IMG/VR virus record: IMGVR_UViG_3300025407_000156
Coordinates: 1 to 20,896 of that record
Source: a virus
DNA: 20,896 bases
Reading direction: 5' to 3' (one strand)
In this document: positions 5,377 to 19,047 of the stretch, piece after piece
Layout: each line of letters begins with the position of its first letter
Numbering within the stretch: position 1 is the stretch's first letter
The notes under the pieces: model-generated
The model's input: only the letters and a program-made list of their open reading frames with translations
What the model was told of the DNA's origin: nothing
Databases searched by the model: none
Made by a program: the position numbers and the translations under genes

Positions 5377-5385
5377 AATTATTTA
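5377..5385 (-). promoter_or_regulatory. TAAATAATT start-proximal box before GT60-type gene
   Basis: TAAATAATT on the minus strand; its first base is 15 nt before the ATG at 5370 and it overlaps the mutase stop codon. It fits the box seen before seven other genes here. No Shine-Dalgarno sequence lies between it and the ATG. Confidence 0.4.
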
Positions 5386-6491
5386 AGTGTGTTAAGAATA
5401 CCAGTGTTTTCCTTTTCAAAATCGTGTAAAGCAGCTGCTATAACTTGATGCATATCATAGTATTTGTACTCTGCTAATCTACCACCAAATAGTACATTTG
5501 GAAGTGTTTTAGTAAGCTCTCTATATTGGTTATATATTTTAGTATTCTTTTCGTTGTTAATTGGATAATACGGAGTCAAACCACGTTTCCAATCTTCTGG
5601 ATACTCCCTTGTAATCAAAGTATGCGGCACGTTTACTGGATCAAAATGCTTGTGTTCAATTATACGTGTATAAGGTACATTAACATCCGTATAGTTAATA
5701 AGAGCATTACCTTGGTAATCTTTAATGGGTACCATTTCATGCTCAAAACTTGTAGTTCTATAATCTAAATCTCCAAACTGGTAATTAAAGTATGCATCTA
5801 TAGGCCCAGTATAAAGTACTTTTTTAGCTACTTTATCCCAGGATTCTTTATTAGCTAAATAATCTGTATTGAGTTTTACTTCAATACCGGAAAGCATTTT
5901 TTCTATAATTTGTGTATAACCACCTACAGGAATACCTTGATATGTATCAAAATAGTAGTTATCATCAAAGTTAGTTCTAATTGGAATTCGTTTAATAATA
6001 AACGTTGGTAACTCTTTAGGATCAGTTTTCCATTGTTTTTGAGTATACCCTTTAATAAACGTTTCGTACAATTCTGTACCTATTTCATTTAAACACCACT
6101 CTTCCAAGTTTTGTGGGTTATCTATTTTTACTTTACTTGCAAGAAGCTTTTCAATTGCTTCTTCTGGTGTCTTTACACCCCAAAGCTGATACAACGTTAA
6201 CAGATTAATTGGAAATGAATAAACCTTACCCTTATAGTCTACTTTTGGTCTATTAACAAAATTGTTAAACGTTGCAAACTGATTAACATAATCCCATATT
6301 TTTTTACTGGACGTATGAAATATGTGAGGGCCGTATTCGTGTACGTGTATACCACCTACGTTCTTTGTATATATGTTACCACCTATATGCTCTTTCTTTT
6401 CAAGCACTAAGCAAGTTTTACCTGCTTTATTTGCTTCATGAGCAAACACGGAACCATATAAGCCTGACCCAACTATAAGATAATCGTACAT
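5379..6491 (-). CDS. glf: UDP-galactopyranose mutase
   Basis: 370 residues, the normal length of bacterial Glf. The enzyme is an FAD-dependent cytoplasmic mutase that interconverts UDP-galactopyranose and UDP-galactofuranose, the donor for galactofuranose glycans. Visible features are the FAD-binding GSGLYGSVFAHEA (residues 8-20), LEKKEHIGGNIYT (30-42), HEYGPHIFHTSSKKIWDYVN (51-70), the substrate-region segment KRIPIRTNFDDNYYFDTYQG (167-186), FEHEMVPI (249-256) and TREYPEDW (294-301), which includes one of the conserved substrate-binding arginines. The start is the only suitable Met and lies after a 37-base gap that contains a perfect 20-bp palindrome. It is the first gene after the baseplate spike and the head of the sugar cassette. 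None of the visible transferases is a clear galactofuranosyltransferase. Confidence 0.97.
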   Translation of the reverse strand: MYDYLIVGSGLYGSVFAHEANKAGKTCLVLEKKEHIGGNIYTKNVGGIHVHEYGPHIFHTSSKKIWDYVNQFATFNNFVNRPKVDYKGKVYSFPINLLTLYQLWGVKTPEEAIEKLLASKVKIDNPQNLEEWCLNEIGTELYETFIKGYTQKQWKTDPKELPTFIIKRIPIRTNFDDNYYFDTYQGIPVGGYTQIIEKMLSGIEVKLNTDYLANKESWDKVAKKVLYTGPIDAYFNYQFGDLDYRTTSFEHEMVPIKDYQGNALINYTDVNVPYTRIIEHKHFDPVNVPHTLITREYPEDWKRGLTPYYPINNEKNTKIYNQYRELTKTLPNVLFGGRLAEYKYYDMHQVIAAALHDFEKENTGILNTLK

Positions 6492-6494
6492 GTA

Positions 6495-6514
6495 GTATTA
6501 TTATATAATAATAC
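6495..6514. repeat. Perfect 20-bp AT-rich palindrome upstream of glf
   Basis: GTATTATTATATAATAATAC is identical to its own reverse complement and fills much of the gap between the spike gene and the mutase gene. It ends four bases before the mutase ATG on the minus strand. It has no GC-rich stem or T-tract, so it is not a typical terminator. It could be an operator or an mRNA hairpin that hides the start; a weak match to the start-proximal box (TAATAATAC) lies inside it. Confidence 0.6.
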
Positions 6515-6528
6515 CGCAATTATTCAAC

Positions 6529-8499
6529 TTAACCTGGTATACCGTTTACAGGACCGTTAGGGTTACTATTTTGATTACCACCAACTGAGTTGTAATGTGT
6601 AGCAGGAGCTGTAGCGCTTAATGCAGCAGTACCGCCATTTACAGTAGCTGCAGCTGTTTGTAGAGCAGCAGGGCTTGCAACAAGTGTAAGTGGAATATTC
6701 TTAAAGTAATGAGTGTGTGGTTGGTTTATTATCAATCTTATTGTATCACCGTATGTAACATTACCGCCAGTACCACCGCCAGGTTTAAGTATTTGTGCTC
6801 CGTTATCAATAATAGTTGAAGACTCTGTAACTTGAAACTCTATAGGTGCAGTTACGTGTTGTAAGAACGTTTCACCATTAATATAAGCACCACCACCTAT
6901 AACCACGTTCTTACTCACCCCTAAATTATCATCAACAACTACTTGCTGACGGTTACGAGTTCTTAATGTCATTATATTAGATATTACTGATAAATTTGTA
7001 CCACCATCAATATTGGTATCGTCTGATGAAGCAATATTAACTTGCTTACCAGCTAATGCCATTATAGTACCACTCATATTAATTGGGCCTGTTGTCTTAA
7101 TATCTATACCACCAGAACCTACTAATAAGTTATATCTATTACCAGTGGATACTGTATAGTTACCACCTGGCATATCATCAATGTGTGTATACTCTATTGC
7201 TGGTATTGTAGTAGTAACTTTACCTGTAGTATTATAATACTCTGTAATTGTTTTAGCAGTACCATTGTATCTTGTACTTGCAAACTGATTAAACACTAAC
7301 CCAACATTAACAAATTTATGTTTTGTTACAGTTTCAATAAAATTACCACCAAAACCAAGTGCAGCTTCTGCTTCTGCTAATGCATTGGCTTGAGAAGTTA
7401 TGATACTTGCAAGATTGTTTTTATTGCTTGCACTCTCTGGTTCTGCTAAGAGGTTTGCTATAGCCGTGTAAGCTGTAACCCACGAGTTCATTGCACTTGT
7501 GTTTAAGGAACCAGTTTTTACATAATAGTCCCCCTGTATAATACTATCAAAATCTCTACCCACCCACAAGTTATTATGTCCATTAATAGTTTCGAATTTA
7601 TCTCTTAGCGTTAGTAGTTGTAGGTTTTTAGGACTGAATAAAGAATTGTACTTGTTGTTAAACTCTAAGAAACCACCGGCAAAATGCGTTATCTTGAAGC
7701 GTTCTCTATCTGTAGTGTTAATGATTTCTAACGCTGCACCGCGTTGATTAATAACCATTTTATTGCGGTACGTCTCTGTATTAACATCGTTTGCATTTCT
7801 AACCGATTTACCCTCACTTTCAAATGTTTGTGGGTAATCTTGATATGTACCGTCATCTGCTCCAAAGATACTTTGGAAATCTTTTTGTCCTAACGATGCA
7901 CCCATATATACTGGGTATGTAGGTATACCATCTCTAAAGAATACCCATACATGTGCACCTACATTTGGTACTGCAAACACACCCTTTGCTGCATTTGAAT
8001 ATGTTGATGGTCTATATTGCCCACCAGTAGGATTAATATTGTTTGTATTATTGGCTACTGTATTAGTAAAAGCGTCTGTTAATTTAGTAGCATACTTTTC
8101 ATATACAAAACCAGGCTTCTCACCCATACGCTCTTGGTTTAAGTTAAATTGCGTGTATGAATTAGAAAAATTAGTACCGGATAAACTGTATGGGTAAGCT
8201 GCATCAGAAGTTGTACCTGTGTCTCCATGTGCATTATACGTTCCAGTAGAACTCTCTCCAGCTACCGGAGCACAATATTCTGCCCACGGTAAACTGTCTC
8301 TAAGGTCATTTATAATTAAGCTTAAATCTGAATTTATATTAAGCCCAGGAAATTTAAAATTACGATCTTGTTTTAAAGCTTCCCACTTGTTATATACACT
8401 TGCATTAACATGAGGTACCCATACCTTAATACGACCACGAAATTCCGGGTCGTTATTAGCTACTACTACACCGAGGTATATTGATGGGTAATTTTTCAT
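6529..8499 (-). CDS. Baseplate hub spike protein, gp5/VgrG-like, without lysozyme domain
   Basis: 656 residues. The N-terminus has an OB-fold like T4 gp5: IYLGVVVANNDPEFRGRIKVWVP (residues 7-29), LPW (70-72) and VPNVGAHVWVFFRDGIPTYPVYMG (178-200). Beta-rich repeats follow (about 248-330), including MVINQRGAALEII and IIQGDYYVKTG. An Ala-rich helical stretch (337-384) comes next. A beta-helix-like part (450-560) contains TGPINMSGTIMAL and KNVVIGGGAYI. An HTH triplet (595-597) sits near the C-terminus, like the iron-binding HxH of other phage spike tips. The protein should form the trimeric membrane-piercing spike under the tail tube. No lysozyme domain is present, unlike T4 gp5. The ATG overlaps the stop of the upstream gene (ATGA). 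The last about 55 residues are low in complexity (Ala/Asn/Pro/Gly). Confidence 0.85.
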   Translation of the reverse strand: MKNYPSIYLGVVVANNDPEFRGRIKVWVPHVNASVYNKWEALKQDRNFKFPGLNINSDLSLIINDLRDSLPWAEYCAPVAGESSTGTYNAHGDTGTTSDAAYPYSLSGTNFSNSYTQFNLNQERMGEKPGFVYEKYATKLTDAFTNTVANNTNNINPTGGQYRPSTYSNAAKGVFAVPNVGAHVWVFFRDGIPTYPVYMGASLGQKDFQSIFGADDGTYQDYPQTFESEGKSVRNANDVNTETYRNKMVINQRGAALEIINTTDRERFKITHFAGGFLEFNNKYNSLFSPKNLQLLTLRDKFETINGHNNLWVGRDFDSIIQGDYYVKTGSLNTSAMNSWVTAYTAIANLLAEPESASNKNNLASIITSQANALAEAEAALGFGGNFIETVTKHKFVNVGLVFNQFASTRYNGTAKTITEYYNTTGKVTTTIPAIEYTHIDDMPGGNYTVSTGNRYNLLVGSGGIDIKTTGPINMSGTIMALAGKQVNIASSDDTNIDGGTNLSVISNIMTLRTRNRQQVVVDDNLGVSKNVVIGGGAYINGETFLQHVTAPIEFQVTESSTIIDNGAQILKPGGGTGGNVTYGDTIRLIINQPHTHYFKNIPLTLVASPAALQTAAATVNGGTAALSATAPATHYNSVGGNQNSNPNGPVNGIPG

Positions 8500-9305
8500 G
8501 CTGTTATTGCAGCCATCGTGAGCTGTACTTGATTGCCTGTTGTTGTGTTGGTTAGATCAACAGTAACTGTAGTATCTCCTATAGTTGTTGTATCTTCATA
8601 CTCTATTTGAGTAGACCAGTTATATGGTACTATTAAGTTACCTATTACTGTGTTATTAAAAGGTAAAAATCTATTTAATACCGGATATAAACTGTTAATA
8701 TTTGTAATAAGAGCAGAGTTCGTGTTTACAATACGAGATAAGTCAGTATCTGCCATTATTAAATTACTATTGTTCGGGTTTACATCGGTACCTACCGGAC
8801 CAATATTAGATATGTTATTAACAAAAAGTGTATTTGCTGTTTTATAAAACGACTTTACTGTATCGGATATACCTGCAGGTAATAAGCGATCTATAATAGT
8901 ATTATAAGGAACACTATTAACGTTACTTTGATTGTTCATGTAGGATATATACGCTAAGCTACCTACTGATTCAGAAAAAGGCTGATAGTATAACGGAGCT
9001 ACTTGTGATATTGCACTTAACACTAAACTATTAGAGTAGTACATTGCTTCATCCCACCAATATTTGCCCCAAAAGTATGGTAAACTGTTTATAGTAGTAC
9101 CACTCAAACTAAGAACCGGGTTATTAGAAGAGATTCCAGCTAATAATGTAAAAAAGTCTATTTGAGAACCGATCGGATTAGATGAATACTGAGCTATATA
9201 ATAGGCCCGGGCTACACCGACTTGAGTTTCAAAACCAGTAACACTATAACCTTTCCAATAAAAGTTAGTGTTATATAAATCGAAGGTTCTGACGTTAGTA
9301 GCCAT
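8496..9305 (-). CDS. Hypothetical structural protein between hub and spike genes
   Basis: 269 residues; I do not recognise the family. The protein is rich in Asn, Ser, Thr and aromatic residues, with a cluster YFWGKYWWDEAMYYSNS near residues 77-93. It has no signal peptide and no convincing membrane helix. The C-terminus (about 225-269) looks like beta-strands rich in Thr and Val. It lies between the gp27-like hub gene and the gp5-like spike gene and overlaps the spike start by four bases (ATGA), so equimolar expression with the spike is plausible. A baseplate role is inferred from position alone. The ATG at 9305 is supported by a TAAATAATA box 12 nt upstream in a 29-base gap. The composition is like that of its neighbours. 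Confidence 0.75.
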   Translation of the reverse strand: MATNVRTFDLYNTNFYWKGYSVTGFETQVGVARAYYIAQYSSNPIGSQIDFFTLLAGISSNNPVLSLSGTTINSLPYFWGKYWWDEAMYYSNSLVLSAISQVAPLYYQPFSESVGSLAYISYMNNQSNVNSVPYNTIIDRLLPAGISDTVKSFYKTANTLFVNNISNIGPVGTDVNPNNSNLIMADTDLSRIVNTNSALITNINSLYPVLNRFLPFNNTVIGNLIVPYNWSTQIEYEDTTTIGDTTVTVDLTNTTTGNQVQLTMAAITA

Positions 9306-9308
9306 TGT

Positions 9309-9317
9309 TATTATTTA
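9309..9317 (-). promoter_or_regulatory. TAAATAATA start-proximal box before hypothetical baseplate gene
   Basis: TAAATAATA on the minus strand, first base 12 nt before the ATG at 9305, within the 29-base gap after the hub gene. No Shine-Dalgarno sequence intervenes. Confidence 0.4.
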
Positions 9318-9334
9318 TCCATGTACTATTAATG

Positions 9335-10867
9335 TTACAGTACATCGTCCGCTATACGCGTATCCTTATCCGCGAAAGGCTTTACTGCAGTAATATTATT
9401 AACGTAGTTGTTTTGTGTAAAAACATGCTCTACTTTCATAAGATACCACTGACCTAAAAACTTTTCATCAAAATCAGCATCAACTGATCCTATCAAGCGA
9501 TCAAGACCAATGAACCGGTTACATTTACGTATTGTAGTACCAGGTACAGTAAAGTGTAAGCACTGATTTAAAAATAAACCAGCCTTAAGTATAGAGTTTC
9601 TTGCATCTGGATATCTTTCAATTTTAGTACTATTATAAGAATAAGGCTGTCTAAAAGAAAGATTTTGTGTCTTGGTTTTATTTAAAGATAGTAATGCAGT
9701 TGGTGCTCTATTGTTTGAAAACTTTTGTATATAGTTATCTTGAAAGTACGTTTTTATATTATCAATAGAGTTGTCTACATAGTCTAAATTAAACTGCTTA
9801 TCTTTAATACTATTACTTGCACACGGTGTATTAATTAGTACAAATGCATTATCTATTGCTGACATATCTACAAACTGATAATTACTAACTGCACTCTTAC
9901 CACCAAAGTTCAGGTTAAGATACGACTCCTGGGTTTGAGGTGTCTTTAATAAAGAAGGTATAATAACCCCAGTAGATGTAGAAGAAGTTAAATAAAATTG
10001 CTCTAACTGCCACGGACCAGCAGCTTTGTTAACTACCGCTAACGACATTTCATTTGCAAATGAAGTTAATGTCCATTCTTTTGAGTATCTATCTCTATAA
10101 AGCAATGGTACATCACCGTCTATTTGTCCGTATTTTTTACTCGCTACGTGCTTATGAAAAATATAATCTAAATCATCAACAGAATTAAAATTCGTTGGTG
10201 GTGTGTAAAATATTTTACTTGCTCCTGGATCCCAAAACTGATTAAACTTTTGTACACCGCTTCTTGCGTTTAATGTATTTTGTATTAAACTTTTAATAGC
10301 TTCTCCTGTTGGTACCTTGCGTTGTTCATCTGAAAGCACACTCGATTTTCCGTTTAAAGTAGGATAAAGCTCGTATAATATTTTGTTTGTATTCCACCCT
10401 GTAGAAGTAGACTCTGCAAATAGTTGATAATCAAATTCCCAGAAATAAAGCTTTATATTTTTCTGATCGGGTTTATTACCTGGTATATCTTCTACATCGT
10501 ATACTGAAAATATGTAATTTAATTCCCAACCAGCTGAAGGAAATGCATCTGTCTCTATACTATCTGTAGCACCATCATATACTGGTTTAATGTTAACTAA
10601 TATAAGATCACGTCCATCATTTCTAAATTTGTAGTTAGCAGCAGACGAGATAAACTCATTTGGTCTACGCTCAATTATATTCTCTTTATTGTTGACAATT
10701 AAGTAACCTTTTTTAAACCACTCTCTGCTATCCTCTTCAATACAAAGCTTTACTAATGCAGAGGTGTTAATTGCAAAAAAAGTATCTTTTGCGTTAAACA
10801 ATGTTACACCAAACTCATATGTTTGGTCATTAACCCTTAGCTTAGTCGTTGATGGAGGCTGAGCCAT
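9335..10867 (-). CDS. Baseplate central hub protein, gp27-like
   Basis: 510 residues. The best evidence is the C-terminal block typical of hub proteins of contractile tails (gp27, P2 gpD and Mu gp44 type): VPGTTIRKCNRFIGLDRL (441-458), then LGQWYLMKVEHVF (471-483) and a beta-strand ending in ITAVKPF. Such proteins form the trimeric ring that links the tail tube to the spike. The central part contains LDYIFHKHVASKKYG and a WTLTSFANEM segment, consistent with the second hub domain. The gene starts three bases after the stop of the gp53-like gene and is followed by an unknown gene and then the spike gene. Sequence similarity to T4 gp27 itself is weak, and the assignment rests on the C-terminal block and gene order. 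Confidence 0.72.
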   Translation of the reverse strand: MAQPPSTTKLRVNDQTYEFGVTLFNAKDTFFAINTSALVKLCIEEDSREWFKKGYLIVNNKENIIERRPNEFISSAANYKFRNDGRDLILVNIKPVYDGATDSIETDAFPSAGWELNYIFSVYDVEDIPGNKPDQKNIKLYFWEFDYQLFAESTSTGWNTNKILYELYPTLNGKSSVLSDEQRKVPTGEAIKSLIQNTLNARSGVQKFNQFWDPGASKIFYTPPTNFNSVDDLDYIFHKHVASKKYGQIDGDVPLLYRDRYSKEWTLTSFANEMSLAVVNKAAGPWQLEQFYLTSSTSTGVIIPSLLKTPQTQESYLNLNFGGKSAVSNYQFVDMSAIDNAFVLINTPCASNSIKDKQFNLDYVDNSIDNIKTYFQDNYIQKFSNNRAPTALLSLNKTKTQNLSFRQPYSYNSTKIERYPDARNSILKAGLFLNQCLHFTVPGTTIRKCNRFIGLDRLIGSVDADFDEKFLGQWYLMKVEHVFTQNNYVNNITAVKPFADKDTRIADDVL

Positions 10868-10870
10868 ATA

Positions 10871-11239
10871 TTACGTTACGTCTTGTAATTGCGAAATAAC
10901 AAGCCTTACATATGCCGGTGTCAAATACTTTAACTGTGTACCAGCTGGTGGACTGAAAACAGGGTTTTCTGTATTATTAACTGAACAAATTAACCACCAT
11001 AGAAGTATAGTACCGTAAAGCTTATACGATATTAAAGTGTAAGGCATGTTTTCAGCTGGAACAGTATATACATCGTAGTATGCTTGTTCTATATTATTAG
11101 GAAAATTGGTTTTAGCTAAAATGTTATAAAAATAGTTATTATTATCGTTTTGATAGACGTTAAAGATGTTTTCATACCTAAACGTCTCAAGTGTAGGTAA
11201 GCTACTAATTTCACTTTGTAATTGTGGTGTTTGATTCAT
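10871..11239 (-). CDS. Baseplate wedge protein, gp53-like with LysM-like core
   Basis: 122 residues. The core, YYDVYTVPAENMPYTLISYKLYGTILLWWLICSVNN (residues 54-89), resembles the T4 gp53 segment in which a strand is followed by an aliphatic helix, a Tyr-Gly pair, a Trp pair and an Asn. The later AGTQLKYLTP (99-108) completes a LysM-like fold. In T4, gp53 joins wedges around the hub to close the hexagonal baseplate. The protein here is shorter than T4 gp53 (about 196 residues) and lacks its C-terminal part. It is tightly packed: it starts three bases after the tube-initiator gene and ends three bases before the hub gene. An alternative is a general LysM-type tail protein such as gpX of P2-like phages. 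Confidence 0.7.
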   Translation of the reverse strand: MNQTPQLQSEISSLPTLETFRYENIFNVYQNDNNNYFYNILAKTNFPNNIEQAYYDVYTVPAENMPYTLISYKLYGTILLWWLICSVNNTENPVFSPPAGTQLKYLTPAYVRLVISQLQDVT

Positions 11240-11242
11240 ATG

Positions 11243-12565
11243 TTACCCCGATAGACTTGTTGTTACTGTTACTTTTTGAGAAGGATCAGCATTAGATAAA
11301 AATAAATTACGAGTGTTTTTAAGTACACCGGTAAAACCAAGTGTAACTTTATACGCTTCTGGCATAAGCTTTACATAAGGGTCACCTGAATCTGCATTAA
11401 CAACTTCTCCTGTTGTTAAATCTACAAGTCTGGTGTTACCCATATTTTGTATAGATATATTGCTCAAATACGCTAAAGGTATTTGCTTATAACCTGGTAT
11501 ATCTATTCTATATAAACATGGTGCATCTAAAAAGTTTATACCTTTTCTATTAGGTAAGTTTTGATATGTTAATATATAACAAAGTTCCCAGTTTTTCTGT
11601 AACTGTGTTACATCTCCGTTATCGAGAGTATTATAAAGATAAAAAGACATCTCCGCGCCTTCTTTTTCACCTGAACCTTGATATGCTATAAGTTCTTCTT
11701 TAGCATTTTCTCCATAAGCACCAGCTGTTGCACCAAATAATACGTCTGTTGCTCCACCCATTACATCAAACATACCGCCCAGGGCTTTACCAAAGTCTCT
11801 TCCTGAGCCTTCATCTTCTCCTCCGCCACCACCAGCACCACTACCGGTAGCAGATTTTTTAGCTTTACCCTTAGCGCCACTAAAGAAATTACTAATACCA
11901 CCAGCTACTTTACCTAATCCACTACCTACACCTGTACCAGGAGCGCCCCACGTATTACCCACTTTTACCATATTAGTAGCTGTATAATAGGGTAGATAAT
12001 AAACAAACCCGGTAGTCTCTACTGCATATAATCCTGCATATGGATCCATTGCACTTGCAAAGTCGCTTGGGCTTTTTGGTGTAAAATCGAATTTTTTAGC
12101 TTTATCTAATATTGAAGTCGCAACAGATGTTGCAGCATTTACTGTAGCGTTAGCAGCTGTTTGTATAGCATTACCAACTGCACCTTGACCGGCGATGGTA
12201 GAAGCTGTTTTTACTTGTTGACCTAAAGATTGAGAAAAACCCGCTAAAGATTCTGTTGACCCTACCTTATTGGCTATAGACAGATCACTAACCGTACCGC
12301 GTATACTGTATAAGTAACCTCTCAATTCACTTGATTGTGTTTGCCTGTACTCTGTTATAATAACCTTAGGTATGTGTTGACGCCCGTCTGTTGGAGTTAA
12401 TGTCCACGGAAATAAATCAAATACGTTAATTGAAAGAGTCTTTGGTTTTAATGTAGGAGCACCTAACTTATCTGGCGATTGTTTCCAATCAAACAGCAAC
12501 CCAGTATAGCTTGGGGGCGTAAAGGTTGAGCTGTTACCTGAAGATGTGTACGTGGATGCTGGCAT
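11243..12565 (-). CDS. Tail tube initiator / baseplate-tube junction protein, gp48/gp54-like
   Basis: 440 residues. The outer parts look like the tube-like fold of T4 gp48 and gp54. One is SINVFDLFPWTL followed by HIPKVIITEYRQ (residues 45-75). The other is LDAPCLYRIDIPGYKQIPLAYLSNISIQNMGNTRL (346-380), with MPEAYKVTLGFTGVLKNTRN (401-420). Between them lies an insertion of about 200 residues rich in Ala, Gly and Ser (about 100-300), including SGAGGGGGEDEGSG (242-255) and a Lys-rich patch. T4 gp54 and gp48 have about 320 and 364 residues and no such insertion to my knowledge. In the baseplate such proteins form the first rings on which the tail tube grows. The gene starts one base after the tape measure stop, matching the T4 order gp29-gp48-gp54. 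Confidence 0.68.
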   Translation of the reverse strand: MPASTYTSSGNSSTFTPPSYTGLLFDWKQSPDKLGAPTLKPKTLSINVFDLFPWTLTPTDGRQHIPKVIITEYRQTQSSELRGYLYSIRGTVSDLSIANKVGSTESLAGFSQSLGQQVKTASTIAGQGAVGNAIQTAANATVNAATSVATSILDKAKKFDFTPKSPSDFASAMDPYAGLYAVETTGFVYYLPYYTATNMVKVGNTWGAPGTGVGSGLGKVAGGISNFFSGAKGKAKKSATGSGAGGGGGEDEGSGRDFGKALGGMFDVMGGATDVLFGATAGAYGENAKEELIAYQGSGEKEGAEMSFYLYNTLDNGDVTQLQKNWELCYILTYQNLPNRKGINFLDAPCLYRIDIPGYKQIPLAYLSNISIQNMGNTRLVDLTTGEVVNADSGDPYVKLMPEAYKVTLGFTGVLKNTRNLFLSNADPSQKVTVTTSLSG

Positions 12566-12566
12566 A

Positions 12567-14591
12567 TTATAATAAACCTCGAGCGTATAACATTGAGTTT
12601 CTATACTTACTACGCTCTATATAAGGTATATCTCTATCTGTACTATCTCCACCCTTACCGAGTATATTTGCAGTAGATGTATTTAAAATAGATGTTGTAG
12701 TGTTATTAGTACTGTTAGATACAGCAGAATTTTGTGTACTTGCAACCACCATAGGTTCAAGCGAAGCAATTAACTCATCCATCTTTTTAACCATGGTTTG
12801 AGCTAACTTAACCTGTGTTTCTTGTATTTTGTAAAGAGGTGTTTCCATCATTGCCTCTTTAGATTCAGGGGTAATTGCTATATTACCTAACTTAGCAGCT
12901 TCTGTAGAAGCAATTGTTGTAGAGGCTAACGCAGCGGACACTATAGTACCTGGTGTATTATTAGCTACAGAAGCCGGGCCCTGTATGCCTGGTAAAGCAG
13001 CTGCTGCAGGAACACCAAAATGTAAAGCGGCTGCAACTGCTGCTAATTTAAGCATATTAACACTGTTAACAGATTCAATAAATTTACTAAATGGATCGAA
13101 ATTTGTTTTTATATCGCCAAATGTGGACATAGCATCTTTTAAGCGATTAATGCTATTGGATAAATTATCTATATTGCTTGTTTGTTGACCTAAAGCTATT
13201 AGTTGATCAACGGGAGAATTTTGCTTAGATCCACCGCCGAGTAGGTTACCGAAAAAATTACCTATACCACTTATAAGCGAACCACCGCCAAACAAAGCCA
13301 TTGCACCCGCAATTGCTGTAATACCCGCAGCTGTGCTTAATAATCTTTCACCGCTTATACTGCTTAGAGTTAATACGCTATTAGCTACCTTTTCAATAAC
13401 ATCTCCAATTGCTTGACCTATAGTTTTAATTGGTAATGCTATAGCTGCCCCGATTTTGTCTATTATACCACCGATAACTTTAAATGTAGCTAAAGTTATT
13501 TCAGCTAACTTAACTGTAGACTCTGTATAAGCAGTTACTATATTACCAAATGCAGTAATTAATTTAGAAAACACACTACCCGCAATTTCTGCAAGTTTAG
13601 TAAAGAATGAAAATACTGTTTGAAGTATAGGTGCTAACTGTTTTAAAGCAGTTATTAATACATCACCTATAACTTTAGCAAGCGCTATAAAAACCGGCAC
13701 CACTGCTTGTATTGCTGGTGTAGCTATTCTTAAAGCAGTTGCCAGGCCTATTACAGCAAGTACAAGTACGCCAATACCAATTGCCCCGGTTTCAGCAACT
13801 ACAGCTATAGCCTCTAAGCCAGGTGCAACACCTGTCAAACCTTCACCAAGAGATGTTAAAAATATTTTTAATCCTTTACCCAAACCAGCTATACCCTTAC
13901 CTACACCTTCTCCGAGTGCCCCTATACCAGCACCTAAACCCTTACCTAAAGCAGCAATTATATTATTACCTACCCCGGCATCCGCACCTGTTTGCTTTGC
14001 CGTTTCAGTTTTTGTATTACCTATAGATGTAGAAAATATTTTCTTAATGGTTTCAACTGCTTCAGAACTAATACTTGCAATACTAACTGGTTGTACTTCC
14101 ACCTCTGCAAGTGCTGCTGCAGCTGCGGCCCCTCCTTCAAGATCAGCTGTAGTGCCTTTACTTGAAGTAGTCGTTACATTTTCAGATAGTTGCTTAGAAA
14201 GATCAGTAGCTAATTTCTTACTTCTATCATCTTCTTCTTTATCTTTTTGCTTTTTACGGGCATCATATTTCTTATCTTCTTCTTTAACTGCATCTGAATT
14301 CTTAATATCTTTATCGTACGCTTTAAACGAGTCAATCATTGTTTGCTTAAATGATGGACCTATTGCTTTAGATATACTATCTAAAGTGTTTATCTGTAAA
14401 ATATTTTGGGCAGTTATGGTTTTGTTACCAGTATCTATAGACGTTATAAGCGCTTTCATTTGCGCATTAGCGTTATTAGAATTTGCCAACATTGCATCTA
14501 ACCACTTTTGCGGTATAGATCCATTATCCTTAGGCTTTAATGTAGCTATTAAAGACGAAATAAATCCCGGATCGTTGGTTTGATCTGCCAT
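12567..14591 (-). CDS. Tape measure protein (T4 gp29-like role)
   Basis: 674 residues. It has a helical N-terminal part, a highly charged coiled-coil stretch rich in Lys, Asp and Glu (residues 92-135) and a long Gly/Ala/Ile-rich hydrophobic helical region (205-450) with several membrane-like segments (for example 258-290 and 296-345). A second helical part (470-620) and a Ser/Thr/Asn-rich linker (619-645) come before a charged C-terminus. This composition is characteristic of tape measure proteins, which fix tail length and are ejected through the tube; no specific sequence motif was used. At about 1.5 angstrom per residue it would give a tail near 100 nm, similar to T4. It follows the gp26-like genes and precedes the tube initiator. 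A TAAGTAATT box stands 15 nt before the ATG. Confidence 0.8.
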   Translation of the reverse strand: MADQTNDPGFISSLIATLKPKDNGSIPQKWLDAMLANSNNANAQMKALITSIDTGNKTITAQNILQINTLDSISKAIGPSFKQTMIDSFKAYDKDIKNSDAVKEEDKKYDARKKQKDKEEDDRSKKLATDLSKQLSENVTTTSSKGTTADLEGGAAAAAALAEVEVQPVSIASISSEAVETIKKIFSTSIGNTKTETAKQTGADAGVGNNIIAALGKGLGAGIGALGEGVGKGIAGLGKGLKIFLTSLGEGLTGVAPGLEAIAVVAETGAIGIGVLVLAVIGLATALRIATPAIQAVVPVFIALAKVIGDVLITALKQLAPILQTVFSFFTKLAEIAGSVFSKLITAFGNIVTAYTESTVKLAEITLATFKVIGGIIDKIGAAIALPIKTIGQAIGDVIEKVANSVLTLSSISGERLLSTAAGITAIAGAMALFGGGSLISGIGNFFGNLLGGGSKQNSPVDQLIALGQQTSNIDNLSNSINRLKDAMSTFGDIKTNFDPFSKFIESVNSVNMLKLAAVAAALHFGVPAAAALPGIQGPASVANNTPGTIVSAALASTTIASTEAAKLGNIAITPESKEAMMETPLYKIQETQVKLAQTMVKKMDELIASLEPMVVASTQNSAVSNSTNNTTTSILNTSTANILGKGGDSTDRDIPYIERSKYRNSMLYARGLL

Positions 14592-14597
14592 ATACCC

Positions 14598-14606
14598 AAT
14601 TACTTA
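14598..14606 (-). promoter_or_regulatory. TAAGTAATT start-proximal box before tape measure gene
   Basis: TAAGTAATT on the minus strand, first base 15 nt before the ATG at 14591. The longer string ACACCTAAGTAA is identical to the one before the first tail tube gene (19036). It lies in a 38-base gap with no other visible signal. Confidence 0.45.
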
Positions 14607-14629
14607 GGTGTAGAACAGTAAAAGCGTTA

Positions 14630-15439
14630 TTAACTTACAATAAACAGCGTGCTATCTATTAATAAAACCAAGTCATTAACTGTTTCACCGGTATCAATAT
14701 TTTCACCTGTAATAGTTAATAAATCCTTTTGTACTGTTACATACTTTTCCATATACTTTAGTACACCCTGTATTGCATTGTTAGGTAGCTTTTCAAGCAA
14801 TGCATGTCGTTTTGCAAAAGGTAAAGATGCATAGTTTACATCTTGAGTTTGATTATTATATGTAACCACCACACCTTTAATAAACTTAGATACTTCACCT
14901 ACAAACGCATCACCAATGGTATCGGTAATTTGAGATGAAAGTACCTGTTGATCGTTAATTGTTTTTTCTCTTAATTGTTTTTCTATACTATAATGCTCAG
15001 ATATTAGAGGTGCACCGACTTGTATGTTAAATGTACCATCATTAACAACGTCTCCTGCAGGTATGGTAACCTCTTTAAGAGCATCAATAATTGTTTGTAA
15101 ATTAACTTTGTATTTGTTTGCGCCTTGTTGTAGTGTGTAGCTTGTACCAGCAGTAAACACTCGTAACTGTACAGCAATTGCAGCTGCATCAATAGTGGTT
15201 AATAAAGATACAATAGCCGGTTCAGTACAATTTTCTTGTATTAAATTATAAAATGCGATCGTAAAGCGGGTCTGGAAAACTGGATTATCAACTGCAGCTT
15301 TTAGTATATTTTTTTGTTGACCTGTACTAATACTTTTAAACTTTACTTCTCTTTGCAGACTTGGTATATAAAGCGGTACTGTTACCTCCTTATTGATTGT
15401 ATCCAATACTGAAAGGATGTCGTTGAAATTGTTACTCAT
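14630..15439 (-). CDS. Baseplate hub assembly protein, T4 gp26/gp51-like (PF12322-type)
   Basis: 269 residues from the ATG at 15439. A longer reading from a TTG at 15472 would add 11 residues and overlap the upstream stop. The ATG is preferred because a TAAGTCATT box sits 11 nt before it, almost exactly as before the paralog at 16398. The T4 baseplate-protein pattern shows as VTVPLYIPSLQREVKFKSIS (residues 19-38), then LLTTIDAAAIAVQLRVFTAG (79-98), where the family has an Asp followed by an Arg in a helix. The motif LPFAKR (206-211) recurs as LPFDKR in the neighbouring gene. In T4, gp26 and gp51 take part in building the central hub. The assignment is by pattern and position. Confidence 0.7.
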   Translation of the reverse strand: MSNNFNDILSVLDTINKEVTVPLYIPSLQREVKFKSISTGQQKNILKAAVDNPVFQTRFTIAFYNLIQENCTEPAIVSLLTTIDAAAIAVQLRVFTAGTSYTLQQGANKYKVNLQTIIDALKEVTIPAGDVVNDGTFNIQVGAPLISEHYSIEKQLREKTINDQQVLSSQITDTIGDAFVGEVSKFIKGVVVTYNNQTQDVNYASLPFAKRHALLEKLPNNAIQGVLKYMEKYVTVQKDLLTITGENIDTGETVNDLVLLIDSTLFIVS

Positions 15440-15441
15440 AT

Positions 15442-15450
15442 AATGACTTA
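15442..15450 (-). promoter_or_regulatory. TAAGTCATT start-proximal box deciding the ATG at 15439
   Basis: TAAGTCATT on the minus strand, first base 11 nt before the ATG at 15439. The string ATAAGTCATTATA also precedes the paralogous gene starting at 16398. It argues against the upstream TTG as start. Confidence 0.45.
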
Positions 15451-15468
15451 TGGTTGCAATATTGTTTA

Positions 15469-16398
15469 TCAAGCAAACTCATTCGGTACATTCGCACCAA
15501 GACTTGCAGGGCTGTTGTTTGATTTCGGGTTACTTGCAGCTATCTCTTCTTGTACTTGTTGTACATAAAGATTCCAATACAATAGTTGTTCTGCAGGTGT
15601 TATAGAGTCTGCATAATCTGGTGTAAAGTTAGCTTTACTAATTAAGTTTAAATTTATTTTGTATAAATTAATTAAATCGTCATTAAAGATTAATTTACAA
15701 AATTCGAGAAGCACGTTCGTGTTTGTAGATATAGGTAAATCAACCACCGGTGTTTTGCTGTAAGGGGAAGGCACCACTAATAGCTTTAATTTAGATAATT
15801 CCACTTCAACTTCAGATAATGAATCATATACTTTAGTGGTTAATGACAGTGGTAGGGCATCCACGAATTCAACTCTTTTGTCAAACGGTAATAATTTAAA
15901 ATCGATAGTTTTATCTTCTACTAATAATGTATCAATACTGGAAGCTAATTGATAGCTAAACGTTTTTTCGGGTTCTAAGTTAACAAAATGTATTTCATCT
16001 TTAGCTTTAATAATACTATGAGTAACTGTAACATTTTCATGTAAAACAGTTCTATTATAAGTTACGCTTTCTAACTTAGATACTAAATCTTCAATACGTA
16101 AATTGTATTCAAACGTTTTTTTAGTTTCTACACAAGTTGCTTTAAGTTTAAGATCTGGACTTATACAAATAGACCTTACTTGAAGCAGTAATATGATCTT
16201 ATCTATAGCATTGAGTCCTCCCTGTAATATCCCGGGAGAAGCGTGTTCTATAAGCTGGTTTAAATGATGTACAAACTCTGTACTATCATTATTATAAAGG
16301 GATTTAACCAAGTCTTTATACAACTTGGATGTAACCTCTCCTACCCATATTTTCTTATTATTAAATCCGGGTAGCTTAACTCCATACGTAAATGCCAT
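15469..16398 (-). CDS. Baseplate hub assembly protein, T4 gp26/gp51-like, second paralog
   Basis: 309 residues. The N-terminal half fits the T4 gp26/gp51 baseplate family: VGEVTSKLYKDLVKSLYNND (residues 19-38), then GGLNAIDKIILLLQVRSICI (60-79) with the conserved Asp and Arg, and LKLKATC, often a small beta-sheet in this family. LPFDKR followed by a helix and LP (170-183) is shared with the downstream protein (LPFAKR). The two are therefore homologs with low overall identity. A C-terminal helical part (about 230-309) ends in an Asn/Pro/Ser-rich tail. The gene stands after a 33-base gap with a TAAGTCATT box. It is likely part of, or a chaperone for, the baseplate hub; the exact T4 counterpart cannot be told. 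Confidence 0.7.
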   Translation of the reverse strand: MAFTYGVKLPGFNNKKIWVGEVTSKLYKDLVKSLYNNDSTEFVHHLNQLIEHASPGILQGGLNAIDKIILLLQVRSICISPDLKLKATCVETKKTFEYNLRIEDLVSKLESVTYNRTVLHENVTVTHSIIKAKDEIHFVNLEPEKTFSYQLASSIDTLLVEDKTIDFKLLPFDKRVEFVDALPLSLTTKVYDSLSEVEVELSKLKLLVVPSPYSKTPVVDLPISTNTNVLLEFCKLIFNDDLINLYKINLNLISKANFTPDYADSITPAEQLLYWNLYVQQVQEEIAASNPKSNNSPASLGANVPNEFA

Positions 16399-16401
16399 TA
16401 T

Positions 16402-16410
16402 AATGACTTA
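16402..16410 (-). promoter_or_regulatory. TAAGTCATT start-proximal box before gp26/gp51-like paralog
   Basis: TAAGTCATT on the minus strand, first base 12 nt before the ATG at 16398, in a 33-base gap without a clear Shine-Dalgarno sequence. Confidence 0.45.
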
Positions 16411-16431
16411 TACCAGTAATATAAAAAATCT

Positions 16432-17175
16432 TTAAGCTCTACCTTGCGTATATAGTACTCTGTACTTGTTATATACAAAGCTTACAGGTGCTATTCTTAT
16501 TTCAGCTTTACCATAAGAATAAGAAGACTCACCAAGAGAAACCGGTGCACAGGACTGAAACTCAAATATCTTTCTTATACCTGCATTACCTTTGTCGTTA
16601 TTATTTTTATCGTAATGAACAACAGTTATATCAGTTCTAACATTTTGAGTAGATGTTTTAGCACGCGTTATTAAACCGTAATGCCCAACAAGCGTTATCC
16701 AAGGCCTGAGAACGAAGTCAATAAATGATTTATTTGTTTCTAAGAAACCTATTTTTAACGGTTCATATTGGCCACGAGAAGTACTAACTATTCCACCTAT
16801 TAAACCACCACTTGAACCGTCTAACGGCTCATGTCTTTGTGTGCCTACAGACTCACCGGGTATGTCTATACCTTGTGCAAACAGACATACCGGGCCACCA
16901 TGCACACCGTGAGTTTGTTTAGTTAGTTCTGTATATAAATCTTTTAATGACGGATTAACGTCCCAGCTGGTTTCATATGCTTGCCAAGGATCGGTATCAA
17001 CTAATTCTTCATCCGTCCATGCATCTGTAGTAAGTGCTTTAGGAAAATCAAAGCTTATTAAAAAATTTGATTCGACCGGTATCTGAGTGTTCGGGTCACT
17101 TAAAAACTTTATAAACGTGTTGACTTCAGAGCCAGCGTTTTGTGCGTTAGCTTTTGGTCCAATTAAAAAAGACAT
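16432..17175 (-). CDS. Tail-tube-fold protein, possible tube/baseplate junction protein
   Basis: 247 residues. The order of elements resembles tube-fold proteins. It runs from ESNFLISFDFPKAL (35-48) through CLFAQGIDIPGESVG (97-111) and GQYEPLKIGFLETNKSFIDFVLRPWITLVG (135-164) to FQSCAPVSLGESSYSYGKAEIRIAPVSFVYNKY (206-238). Thus a first strand is followed by a Pro-Gly-Glu strand, a long strand-helix and a C-terminal Pro-Val strand pair. This fits either a fourth gp19 homolog or a gp48/gp54-type initiator ring. The ATG overlaps the stop of the third tube paralog by one base (TAATG). The run AGGGGGTAGG before it gives one of the few Shine-Dalgarno-like signals in the window, and no TAAGTAATT box is present. 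A tube-fold role is inferred from pattern and position. Confidence 0.65.
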   Translation of the reverse strand: MSFLIGPKANAQNAGSEVNTFIKFLSDPNTQIPVESNFLISFDFPKALTTDAWTDEELVDTDPWQAYETSWDVNPSLKDLYTELTKQTHGVHGGPVCLFAQGIDIPGESVGTQRHEPLDGSSGGLIGGIVSTSRGQYEPLKIGFLETNKSFIDFVLRPWITLVGHYGLITRAKTSTQNVRTDITVVHYDKNNNDKGNAGIRKIFEFQSCAPVSLGESSYSYGKAEIRIAPVSFVYNKYRVLYTQGRA

Positions 17176-17834
17176 TACCTACCCCCTAATAAGTTTTTAA
17201 CAGTTTTGGTAACAAGTTTTGAAGCTATATTGCCTAAACCGTTAGTTACACCAAAATTATTACCTAAACTTAAACCTGATGTTATACCTGAACTTGGACC
17301 TGTTTGCCAGTATTGATACGCAATAGTAGCTTTTACTTCTTGTATACCACCTGACTTAGTTAAATCATAAGCTATATCATCAATCTTAGTAATGAATGCA
17401 CCTAATAGTGTATATACTTTAATTTCGTTTAACTGGTCATCGATGAGAGAAAGATTTATAATGTTTTGATTTAAATCTCTTGGCTCCATATTACCATATG
17501 ATTGAGTTTCATCAAACGTATCTGTAATTGAGTCCTCTAACATCGACCTTAAATTATAATCTTGAGTACAATAGAACGTAACGTTCCATGCATTGTTATT
17601 ATCAAACTTTACTGTACCGGGTATTTGAAAATCTAACCCCATAAAAGGAGCTGTTGTTGTGCTAATAGACTTACCAGGTAAACTTGCTGTCTTTAAAAAT
17701 ACTAAATCTTGATCTTGTAATGTAACACCGTTAACGTTAAATGACGTAATTCTAAATTGAAAATCCCTTGCAAAGCCGACGTTGGTTGCATTGGTGTAAA
17801 AATCTCTGATAGTTTGTCCTTGAACGGATGCCAT
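17175..17834 (-). CDS. Tail tube protein paralog 3 (gp19-like)
   Basis: 219 residues. It aligns by eye with the first tube protein along its length. Shared parts are TIRDFYTNATNVGFARDF (residues 8-25), SLPGKSISTTTAPFMGLDFQIPGTV (51-75), AWNVTFYC (82-89), a helix LRSMLED (95-101), LSLIDDQLNEIKVYTLLGAF (128-147) and KATIAYQYW (168-176). It has an extra C-terminal tail of about 40 residues (178-219), rich in Gly, Ser, Leu and Lys, absent from the other two paralogs. Tube-fold proteins stack as hexameric rings in the tail. A variant with an extra tail could form a special ring at one end or be a minor tube component. The gene starts after a 15-base gap with a TAAGTATAA box, and its stop overlaps the next gene by one base. 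Confidence 0.85.
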   Translation of the reverse strand: MASVQGQTIRDFYTNATNVGFARDFQFRITSFNVNGVTLQDQDLVFLKTASLPGKSISTTTAPFMGLDFQIPGTVKFDNNNAWNVTFYCTQDYNLRSMLEDSITDTFDETQSYGNMEPRDLNQNIINLSLIDDQLNEIKVYTLLGAFITKIDDIAYDLTKSGGIQEVKATIAYQYWQTGPSSGITSGLSLGNNFGVTNGLGNIASKLVTKTVKNLLGGR

Positions 17835-17837
17835 ATA

Positions 17838-17846
17838 TTATACTTA
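17838..17846 (-). promoter_or_regulatory. TAAGTATAA start-proximal box before tube paralog 3
   Basis: TAAGTATAA on the minus strand, first base 12 nt before the ATG at 17834. It occupies most of the 15-base gap after tube paralog 2. Confidence 0.4.
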
Positions 17847-17849
17847 TAA

Positions 17850-18440
17850 TTAGGATGGTAATAAATCTTCGGAAGTAATATACTGAAAACCTAAAGTTGC
17901 CTGTAATTTAGCTATATCACCACCAGCTGCTAAACTATATTCTATAGACCCCACGTTTTGTAAAAACGCACCAACAAGTCTGTATTTACGTATTACTGGG
18001 TATGTGTCAGGGCTGTTAGGTCCTGAGTTATTCAATAAATCTAACTCTACACTACAATCCCACCAGTTTGGTACATTAGATTGGGACGTATGTTCATCAA
18101 ATGTATCTACTGACCATTTTTCAAGAACGTTTCTCAATACGTAGTCTCTATCACAGTAAAATGTTAATGCCCAGCTGGCGGATTCAGGATACTGTGCAAC
18201 CATTGGAACTGTATACTTAAATGATTTAAAATCTACAGTGGTAGTTGTTATAGTACGAGACGGTATAGTACCGCTTTGAGCATACAAAAATAAGTTTTCA
18301 GAACTGTCAGATGCAGGGGCGTATATATCGGAAGTACCGCCTGTACCATTTCTTGATATAGAATTAATTCTAAACAGATTAGTACGAGCAAATCCACGAT
18401 TTGTTGCTGTTTTATAAAAGTCTGATATGCCCCTATCCAT
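17850..18440 (-). CDS. Tail tube protein paralog 2 (gp19-like)
   Basis: 196 residues. It begins with the same pattern as its neighbours, ISDFYKTATNRGFARTNLFRINSIS (residues 5-29). It continues with IPSRTITTTTVDF (59-71), SWALTFYCDRDYVLRNVLEKW (89-109) and RKYRLVGAFLQNVGSIEYSL (151-170), ending in ATLGFQYI (181-188). It carries an insertion of about 15 residues (32-50), a loop richer in Gly, Ser and Asp than in the other copies. It is the first gene after the terminator that follows tube gene 1 and has its own TAAGTATTA box. It therefore may be expressed at a different level from the major tube protein. The fold is confident by homology with tube gene 1, but its place in the tail is unknown. 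Confidence 0.83.
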   Translation of the reverse strand: MDRGISDFYKTATNRGFARTNLFRINSISRNGTGGTSDIYAPASDSSENLFLYAQSGTIPSRTITTTTVDFKSFKYTVPMVAQYPESASWALTFYCDRDYVLRNVLEKWSVDTFDEHTSQSNVPNWWDCSVELDLLNNSGPNSPDTYPVIRKYRLVGAFLQNVGSIEYSLAAGGDIAKLQATLGFQYITSEDLLPS

Positions 18441-18443
18441 CTA

Positions 18444-18452
18444 TAATACTTA
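18444..18452 (-). promoter_or_regulatory. TAAGTATTA start-proximal box after the terminator
   Basis: TAAGTATTA on the minus strand, first base 12 nt before the ATG at 18440 and about 13 bases after the T-run of the preceding terminator. A transcript must be re-started or read through here, which favours a promoter role for the box. Confidence 0.5.
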
Positions 18453-18464
18453 ATGTATGAACAT

Positions 18465-18493
18465 AAAAAAAGCCCTGCTTTTAACAGGGCTTT
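18465..18493 (-). terminator. Rho-independent terminator after first tail tube gene
   Basis: On the minus strand a 9-bp stem AAAGCCCTG / CAGGGCTTT encloses the 7-base loop TTAAAAG. The 3' arm runs into seven T residues in total. It lies 19 bases after the tube gene stop, in the largest intergenic gap of the window (71 bases), and would end the sheath and tube transcript. Confidence 0.9.
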
Positions 18494-18511
18494 GAATTAA
18501 AACTTTAACTA

Positions 18512-19036
18512 TTAAACATGTCTCCAATACTGGTATGCTAATTTAGCAGTAAAGTCTAAAGGCTTACCTGCACCCGAATTATCATATCCTGTAACAGCAC
18601 CTAAGTTTACAATATATACACCGTAAAGCTTATAAGTGTTGAGAACGTTTTGACTTTCATCAATTAGATCAAGTTGTATAACTTTATCTGTACCACGTAA
18701 TGAAAGATCTCCTGTGCTTGTTGCGTCATTAAACACGCCATTGATTTGCCAGTCTTCAAGTTTTTTACGAATAACGCCTTTAAGATCGTTGTAGAATTTT
18801 ACTTCCCAACCATCTGAACCAGTATAATCAACAGTACCAGGTACATTGAAGTTTAGTCCCATGTATGGTACTTTTTGATTGCTAATTTGGCGATCTGGAA
18901 GTTGTTTTGTTGTAATGTAAACAAAATCGTCTTCGGTAAACGTGTCTTGGCCAATAGAGCGAACTCGCATCATGAAATCACGTGCAAATCCGCGCTCTTG
19001 TGCTACTCTGTAGAAGTCTTGTATTGTCTGTGCCAT
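18512..19036 (-). CDS. Major tail tube protein (gp19-like)
   Basis: 174 residues, close to the 163 of T4 gp19. Features are TIQDFYRVAQERGFARDF (residues 4-21), LPDRQISNQKVPYMGLNFNVPGTV (46-69), GWEVKFYND (76-84), a helix VIRKKLEDW (88-96), IQLDLIDESQNVLNTYKLYGV (120-140) and a final KLAYQYWRHV. This is the strand and helix order of the contractile-tail tube family, which forms the hexameric rings of the inner DNA conduit. The position directly after the sheath gene, with a strong terminator after it, matches the T4 gp18-gp19 pair and suggests it is the major tube protein. The 20-base gap before it holds a TAAGTAAAT box and no clear Shine-Dalgarno sequence. Confidence 0.9.
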   Translation of the reverse strand: MAQTIQDFYRVAQERGFARDFMMRVRSIGQDTFTEDDFVYITTKQLPDRQISNQKVPYMGLNFNVPGTVDYTGSDGWEVKFYNDLKGVIRKKLEDWQINGVFNDATSTGDLSLRGTDKVIQLDLIDESQNVLNTYKLYGVYIVNLGAVTGYDNSGAGKPLDFTAKLAYQYWRHV

Positions 19037-19038
19037 AA

Positions 19039-19047
19039 ATTTACTTA
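19039..19047 (-). promoter_or_regulatory. TAAGTAAAT start-proximal box before major tube gene
   Basis: TAAGTAAAT on the minus strand, first base 11 nt before the ATG at 19036, inside the string ACACCTAAGTAA that is repeated before the tape measure gene. Confidence 0.45.

Follow-up and report, generated by a model that had tools for sequence, protein, structure and literature searches.

We analysed the 20,896-base virus record IMGVR_UViG_3300025407_000156 of IMG/VR (hereafter the window, meaning this whole stretch), in which a TAARTA-like box recurs shortly before the start codons of several genes, mostly genes of a tail module. These boxes are probably start-proximal variants of the T4-type late promoter that are read by a gp55-type sigma factor. 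We regard this reading as supported because the core of the box differs from the T4 late core only in having R at one place, because a gp55 homologue is present in related contigs, and because the boxes are biased toward structural genes and toward genes with free space upstream.

The original prediction had listed eight boxes of the consensus TAARTMWTW at nearly fixed distances from the ATG, and all eight were found at the spacings claimed. They are given below with their counterparts in four related contigs (G001, G002, G003, and G006).

19039..19047, minus strand: putative late box TAAGTAAAT, its first T 11 nucleotides (nt) before the ATG of the tail-tube-like gene 18512-19036; TAAATA or TAAGTA at 11–15 nt in the four relatives

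18444..18452, minus strand: putative late box TAAGTATTA, 12 nt before the ATG of the tail-tube-like gene 17850-18440; TTAAGTATTA in all four relatives

17838..17846, minus strand: putative late box TAAGTATAA, 12 nt before the ATG of the tail-tube-like gene 17175-17834; TAAGTA at 11–16 nt in the four relatives

16402..16410, minus strand: putative late box TAAGTCATT, 12 nt before the ATG of the baseplate-hub-like gene 15469-16398; TAAGTC in G006, G002, and G003, and TAAGTT (sixth base T) in G001

15442..15450, minus strand: putative late box TAAGTCATT, 11 nt before the ATG of gene 14630-15439; TAAGTC in G001 and G006, TAAATC in G003, and TAAATT (sixth base T) in G002

14598..14606, minus strand: putative late box TAAGTAATT, 15 nt before the ATG of the tape-measure-like gene 12567-14591; TAAGTA at 13–15 nt in the four relatives

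9309..9317, minus strand: putative late box TAAATAATA, 12 nt before the ATG of gene 8496-9305; TAAGTA at 12 nt in the four relatives

5377..5385, minus strand: doubtful box TAAATAATT, 15 nt before the ATG at 5370 and overlapping the stop codon of gene 5379-6491; kept in G006 and absent in G001, G002, and G003

The seven boxes before starts 19036, 18440, 17834, 16398, 15439, 14591, and 9305 were conserved within a few bases in all four relatives, whereas the 5370 box is doubtful because it was kept in only one of them. The consensus itself stood in part: it was matched exactly by six of the eight boxes, and those of 19036 and 17834 each departed from it by one base. The claimed tie to upstream space was borne out, as a box preceded seven of the nine starts with at least 15 nt upstream and none of the nine with 4 nt or less, in addition to 5370 with 8 nt. 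No Shine-Dalgarno sequence was found at any of the eight box starts, in line with the scarcity noted before. The start at 15439, rather than the TTG at 15472, is supported by the protein alignments, which set in at the first residue of this start. The sheath gene continues to the end of the window, and its start at 19962 is internal.

What sets the boxes apart is where they lie and not how often they occur. Over the whole window, the nine-base consensus was no more frequent than expected (13 matches on both strands against 15.2), but 6 of the 13 matches lay 11–15 nt before a start. Unsupervised expectation maximization on 89 upstream sequences of G001 yielded TAAaTAat at a width of 8 (score 123, against 61–70 in shuffled sequences) and aTAAaTAaTaat at a width of 12 (153 against 84–94); under other settings, it gave a TTGA-like motif (39; shuffled sequences 24–31) in place of the box. 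When the G001-trained motif was applied to the window at positions −9 to −20, at least 7 bits were reached by 7 of 19 starts and by 1.7% of 346 other ATGs on the same strand; in 5000 random draws of 19 ATGs, never more than three reached this score. The G001 training set includes orthologues of the window's own genes, and the motif was therefore retrained on 77 G001 upstream sequences outside the orthologous region. The retrained motif reached 8 bits at 5 of 19 window starts and at 1 of 346 other ATGs (7 bits: 5 of 19 and 10 of 346), the hits being 5370, 6491, 9305, 17834, and 18440. Start 6491, which has no box in the original list, scored with both motifs; 16398 and 15439, whose box is TAAGTC, stayed below the threshold in both scans, and 19036 and 14591 passed the first scan and fell below the threshold in the second.

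The same arrangement was widespread among the relatives. TAARTA occurred at −9 to −20 in 98 of 327 genes of the window, G001, G003, G002, and G006, and in 47 of 165, 40 of 136, and 29 of 91 genes of the further relatives G008, G009, and G012, for which the shuffled means were 10.3, 7.1, and 5.2. Contig G007 was 100% identical to the window over the proteins compared and was excluded from the box and Shine-Dalgarno counts. For reference phages, sampled as one 50-kb stretch each (two for C48C1) with the same in-house gene caller, the numbers were 3 of 56 genes in T4 and none in phiM12 (0/79), C48C1 (0/99), and P-SSM4 (0/23). For genes with 40 or more free bases upstream, 67 boxes lay at −11 to −15 in the eight contigs (234 genes) and none did in six reference T4-like phages (156 genes), in which boxes were commonest at −26 to −45; lowering the limit to 20 free bases gave two boxes at −11 to −15 in HTVC008M. 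The contigs are related and counts over them are not independent; 212 of the box upstream sequences were distinct. The layout was also present in the more distant contigs G014, G015, and G017, whose gp55 is 45%, 42%, and 45% identical, which ruled out its confinement to near relatives: boxes at −11 to −20 were found in 24 of 50, 24 of 58, and 26 of 91 free-space genes, and a TAAATAAT-like motif was the top-ranked one in G014 and G015 and the second-ranked one in G017 (width 8, run without a shuffle control).

TAAATA is part of the T4 late box TATAAATA, and the full eight bases were found exactly at 13 places upstream of the 327 genes. In the 212 unique boxes, the base corresponding to −8 was A in 116 and G in 96; the boxes carry the T4 late core with R here.

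The boxes were distributed by gene class and by upstream space. A TAARTM box preceded 167 of 383 genes that have 15 or more free bases upstream or a divergent neighbour, but only 19 of 255 genes abutting their predecessor. Counting the eight contigs separately, we found a box within 32 nt of 34 of 41 structural homologues and of 4 of 32 replication homologues; among the seven structural homologues without a near box, two were cut by contig ends and two were capsid genes with a farther box. In the relatives, the sheath gene had a box 21–29 nt before its start in 8 of 8 contigs (G002 and G012 also have nearer ones), and the capsid gene had one 67–77 nt upstream in 21 of 21 loci with a capsid identity of at least 77%. 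A T run stood just before the capsid box in 20 of the 21 loci, and a second TAARTA lay within the capsid leader in 11. Terminator-like elements preceded 12 of the 167 genes with a box, 9 of the 216 free-space genes without one, and none of the 255 abutting genes. Together, the free-space bias, the split between structural and replication homologues, the distant capsid box, and the terminators favour a promoter.

A gp55-like sigma gene, which the original prediction had proposed to look for elsewhere in the genome, was found in the relatives G001 and G003 (phmmer E about 1e-13). It sits between uvsW and gp47, in the same order as in C48C1. An IMG/VR scan retrieved 92 relatives, of which 80 were kept; the query was an open frame that comprises gp55 and, ahead of its presumed start, some 51 residues that overlap uvsW. 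No relative was found with the gp55 query in genome_contigs. A clamp-like protein was recognized in G001 as a match to phrog_223 (E 2.7e-07).

The T4 late box is described in passages of PMC2988020 as eight bases beginning at −13, and in T4 it stands one helical turn before the transcription start. When this register is applied, TAARTA would begin at −11, and each conserved box would act as a −10-like element with a variant consensus of about RTAARTAWT, read by the host RNA polymerase carrying the phage gp55-type sigma factor. With boxes mostly 11–16 nt before the ATG, transcription would begin at the ATG itself or no more than about 5 nt ahead of it; offsets of 11, 12, and 15 predict leaders of 0, 1, and 4 nt, and the range of 11–16 predicts about 0–5 nt. 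From this geometry, we infer that the mRNAs of box genes are probably leaderless or nearly so and would be translated without a Shine-Dalgarno sequence.

The translation signals of the group agreed with such an arrangement. Shine-Dalgarno sequences preceded 14 of the 327 genes and none of the 98 box genes; with AGGG also allowed, the eight contigs had 30 among 719 genes and 5 among the 214 box genes. These frequencies were at the level of shuffled sequences (4% against 5% in G001 and 1% against 4% in G008), and those of G014, G015, and G017 were slightly above it (7–11% against 4–6%). Shine-Dalgarno pairing has nevertheless not disappeared entirely: before the capsid gene, such a sequence was present in 23 of 30 more distant loci and in 0 of 21 near loci.

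We then weighed other explanations of the boxes. They could be ordinary −10 elements of host sigma70 promoters that need no phage sigma factor, which we consider unlikely. Box-less free-space genes did carry TTGA-16-TATAAT-like pairs near their starts (34 of 83, against a shuffled mean of 16.1 and a maximum of 26 in 200 shuffles), and TTG stood at the −35 spacing of 15–18 before 24 of 116 TAAATA boxes, against 4–14 at control spacings. However, TAAGTA boxes showed no such excess (10 of 96; controls 1–14), the pair was not clearly enriched before box genes (32 of 108; shuffled mean 23.6, maximum 36), and the boxes separated structural from replication homologues. T4 late promoters have no general −35 element, and the boxes of the group may resemble them in this. 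A minority of the TAAATA boxes may be sigma70 promoters, because of the TTG excess at the −35 spacing.

For the box-less genes, the −10 element of the sigma70-like pairs lay 9–19 nt before the start in 38 of 54 placements, and in a larger set the −35/−10 spacing of 16 stood out (20 of 86, with 11 at a spacing of 11). Early transcripts may therefore also have very short leaders. The evidence is weaker than that for the late boxes, because abutting genes also showed an excess of pairs (23 of 99; shuffled mean 13.9, maximum 23) and because expectation maximization on the box-less genes gave nothing clearly above shuffled sequences.

The original prediction had offered as its alternative a translation-initiation signal, such as an A/U-rich enhancer, acting in place of Shine-Dalgarno pairing. 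The box is close to the ATG, Shine-Dalgarno sequences are generally scarce, and the bases just before the ATG were A-rich and G-poor in all four start classes, as this explanation would have it. Nevertheless, abutting genes are also mostly without a Shine-Dalgarno sequence yet are rarely boxed, replication homologues seldom have the box, the sheath and capsid boxes lie 21–29 and 67–77 nt from their starts, and the sequence of the box is that of the T4 late core. The alternative is thus disfavoured, and we judge it quite improbable. A chance effect of A+T-rich, compact intergenic DNA on a motif chosen post hoc is very improbable, for although the nine-base consensus is not enriched over the window and the 5370 box may be of this kind, the unsupervised motif and the counts in further contigs exceed shuffled sequences several-fold, window starts are still picked out by the motif retrained without the orthologous region, and the boxes are conserved in place.

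Several observations weigh against the T4-type late promoter. One is the TTG excess before TAAATA boxes, a sigma70 feature. HTVC008M has four boxes near starts among 55 genes, indicating that the layout is not wholly restricted to this lineage, and the pf16 stretch (2 of 88 genes) lists no structural genes and is a poor control. The TA of T4 at −13/−12 is not kept (−13: A 0.41, C 0.24, T 0.23; −12: A 0.38, G 0.34); this was counted as variation rather than exclusion, because Aeromonas phage Aeh1 also deviates there according to passages of PMC2988020. Offsets scatter from 9 to 20, which corresponds to leaders of 0–9 nt and to no single fixed leaderless start, and near-leaderless is therefore the safer word. 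The predicted transcription start has no marked base preference, and its placement relies on the T4 register. The window, a fragment, contains no gp55 itself. A gp33 homologue was not found with one query, the gp33 of C48C1 (best match E 0.69). Finally, the C-terminus of gp55, the site of the T4 clamp motif, differs, and none of 79 complete copies has a C48C1-like tail. In T4, loss of the clamp motif impairs activation but does not abolish it, as reported in passages of PMC7892883. The gp55 of the group (L047-L126) ends in variants of AAYQEEVYS.IGP.VGVDDPVNP followed by a short variable tail, and the C-terminus of C48C1 gp55 is longer.

The window covers part of the genome of an uncultured phage of the T4 superfamily, to which its relatives also belong. 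Homologues of C48C1 gp55, gp43, gp41, uvsX, uvsW, gp46, gp47, and gp18 were present in G001 and G003, and G001 additionally had homologues of gp23, gp21, gp20, and gp44. Megablast of the window against 50,697 phage records found no near relative, and the capsid protein had no match of at least 60% among phage records, the best among the matches listed being 32–35% identical. Membership in the Far-T4 group, considered from passages of PMC4360716 and PMC7198788, was not adopted, since the G001 capsid is closer to those of HTVC008M, C48C1, and phiM12 than to that of RM378. A broader and more speculative picture, which we consider less likely than not, is that a large uncultured T4-superfamily lineage expresses most of its units, early and late, as leaderless or near-leaderless mRNA. 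Its sigma70 and gp55 promoters would be set against the start codon, only a few genes, the capsid gene among them, would retain leaders, and late transcription may be uncoupled from the clamp, given a gp55 without the T4-type clamp tail and a gp33 that was not seen with the one query.

The layout was compared with known systems. The T4 late promoters, which depend on gp55, gp33, and gp45 in passages of PMC2988020 and PMC7892883, resemble it in the TAAATA core, in their location upstream of structural genes, and in the gp55 and clamp homologues of the relatives. In contrast to T4, the group has the TAAGTA variant (R for A at −8) and does not keep the −13/−12 TA, its box is mostly 11–16 nt before the ATG rather than about 20–45 nt as in the T4 stretch, its Shine-Dalgarno sequences are at chance level, its gp55 C-terminus is different, and gp33 was not detected with the one query. 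P-SSM4, HTVC008M, phiM12, and C48C1 share with the group T4-superfamily genes and TAAATA-type boxes upstream of genes, but their boxes lie mostly 21–90 nt upstream and 22–51% of their genes have a Shine-Dalgarno sequence.

An analogous start-proximal box, TATTTAA, mostly 13–16 nt before the ATG, was spotted by eye in phage RM378, which is cultured on Rhodothermus marinus; its sequence differs from that of the group. In RM378 (L334-L336), 25 of the 140 genes had the ATTTAA core at −20 to −9 (shuffled mean 2.45, maximum 7), and a Shine-Dalgarno sequence preceded none of these 25 and 23 of the 115 others. The annotated sigma factor of RM378 had no significant match among the open reading frames and gp55 of the group, and its capsid was less similar to the group than those of C48C1, HTVC008M, phiM12, or T4. 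Mycobacterial leaderless mRNAs, which have the start codon at or near the 5' end and no Shine-Dalgarno sequence, rest on 5' ends mapped in cells, whereas the layout of the group consists of phage promoters inferred from sequence.

Late transcription in T4 is a textbook case. In the T4-like phages sampled, most late boxes are far enough upstream to accommodate a ribosome-binding site, whereas those of the group appear to leave no space for one. Among the papers listed by a literature search, with subscription journals mostly outside it, none described near-leaderless late promoters for T4-like phages. The new element would be start-proximal late promoters in a broad uncultured T4-like lineage, with late mRNA that is probably near-leaderless. 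Novelty is limited in that, in passages of PMC5312081, phage transcripts are often leaderless, with the leaders of AR9 itself at 26–491 nt. Literature passages gave no support to the view that the late mRNA of Thermus phage P23-45 is leaderless. If the reading is correct, the late-promoter module can serve to make leaderless mRNA, which would point to hosts that translate such mRNA well, and the layout would assist in calling start codons and operons across many contigs of uncultured phages. RM378, being cultured, allows testing whether start-proximal boxes yield leaderless mRNA.

All 20 called genes of the window are on the minus strand. In addition to the sheath, the three tail-tube-like proteins, the baseplate-hub-like proteins, and the tape-measure match of the tail module, there were a fourth tail-tube candidate whose tube match was weak, a UDP-galactopyranose mutase, and glycosyltransferases. 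The mutase was uninformative for host assignment, since the best 80 of 579 matches include cellular relatives (54–64%) from several phyla. Bacteroidota-type promoters carry the motif TAnnTTTG; before box-less genes, 2 were found against 2.3 in shuffled sequences, which gave no support to such a host. Bacteroidetes hosts are predicted for two uncultured T4-like genomes in passages of PMC7198788. An Rfam search of the window gave no match at the gathering score. Three further features were located:

18465..18493, minus strand: intrinsic-terminator-like hairpin with a T run, between gene 18512-19036 and the box of 18440

17182..17187, minus strand: Shine-Dalgarno-like AGGGGG before the ATG at 17175, whose gene abuts its predecessor and has no box

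6500..6527, minus strand: sigma70-like promoter TTGAAT-16-TATAAT, the first T of its −10 element 14 nt before the ATG of gene 5379-6491 (UDP-galactopyranose mutase)

Part of the terminator-like hairpin was conserved in the relatives. The sequence before 17175 was kept as AGGAGG or AGGGGG in the window, G006, G002, and G003 and was absent in G001, a conservation observed although Shine-Dalgarno sequences are at chance level in these contigs. The sigma70-like promoter of 6491 was conserved in G001, G003, and G006 and altered in G002. A palindrome, GTATTATTATATAATAATAC, surrounds its −10 element at 6495-6514, and G002 has a different palindrome-like stretch at the equivalent place.

Two hairpins were observed in the relatives. 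Upstream of gp23, the capsid gene, a conserved leader with the hairpin GTTGAAGTACTGTTAAGTACTTGAG was present in L226-L246 and at G001:C1:22347-22415 (minus strand); 3 of its 7 stem pairs changed on both sides among seven distinct rows, and 98% of the cells paired. An Rfam search of six loci near this leader yielded nothing beyond a Trp_leader match below threshold in one of them (25 bits, against a gathering score of 41). The other hairpin, AGGTCA-N8-TGACCT at G001:C1:57213-57232 (plus strand), immediately precedes the GTG with which the DNA polymerase gene starts. The gp43 of T4 autoregulates via an operator, and this hairpin is perhaps an autoregulatory operator as well.

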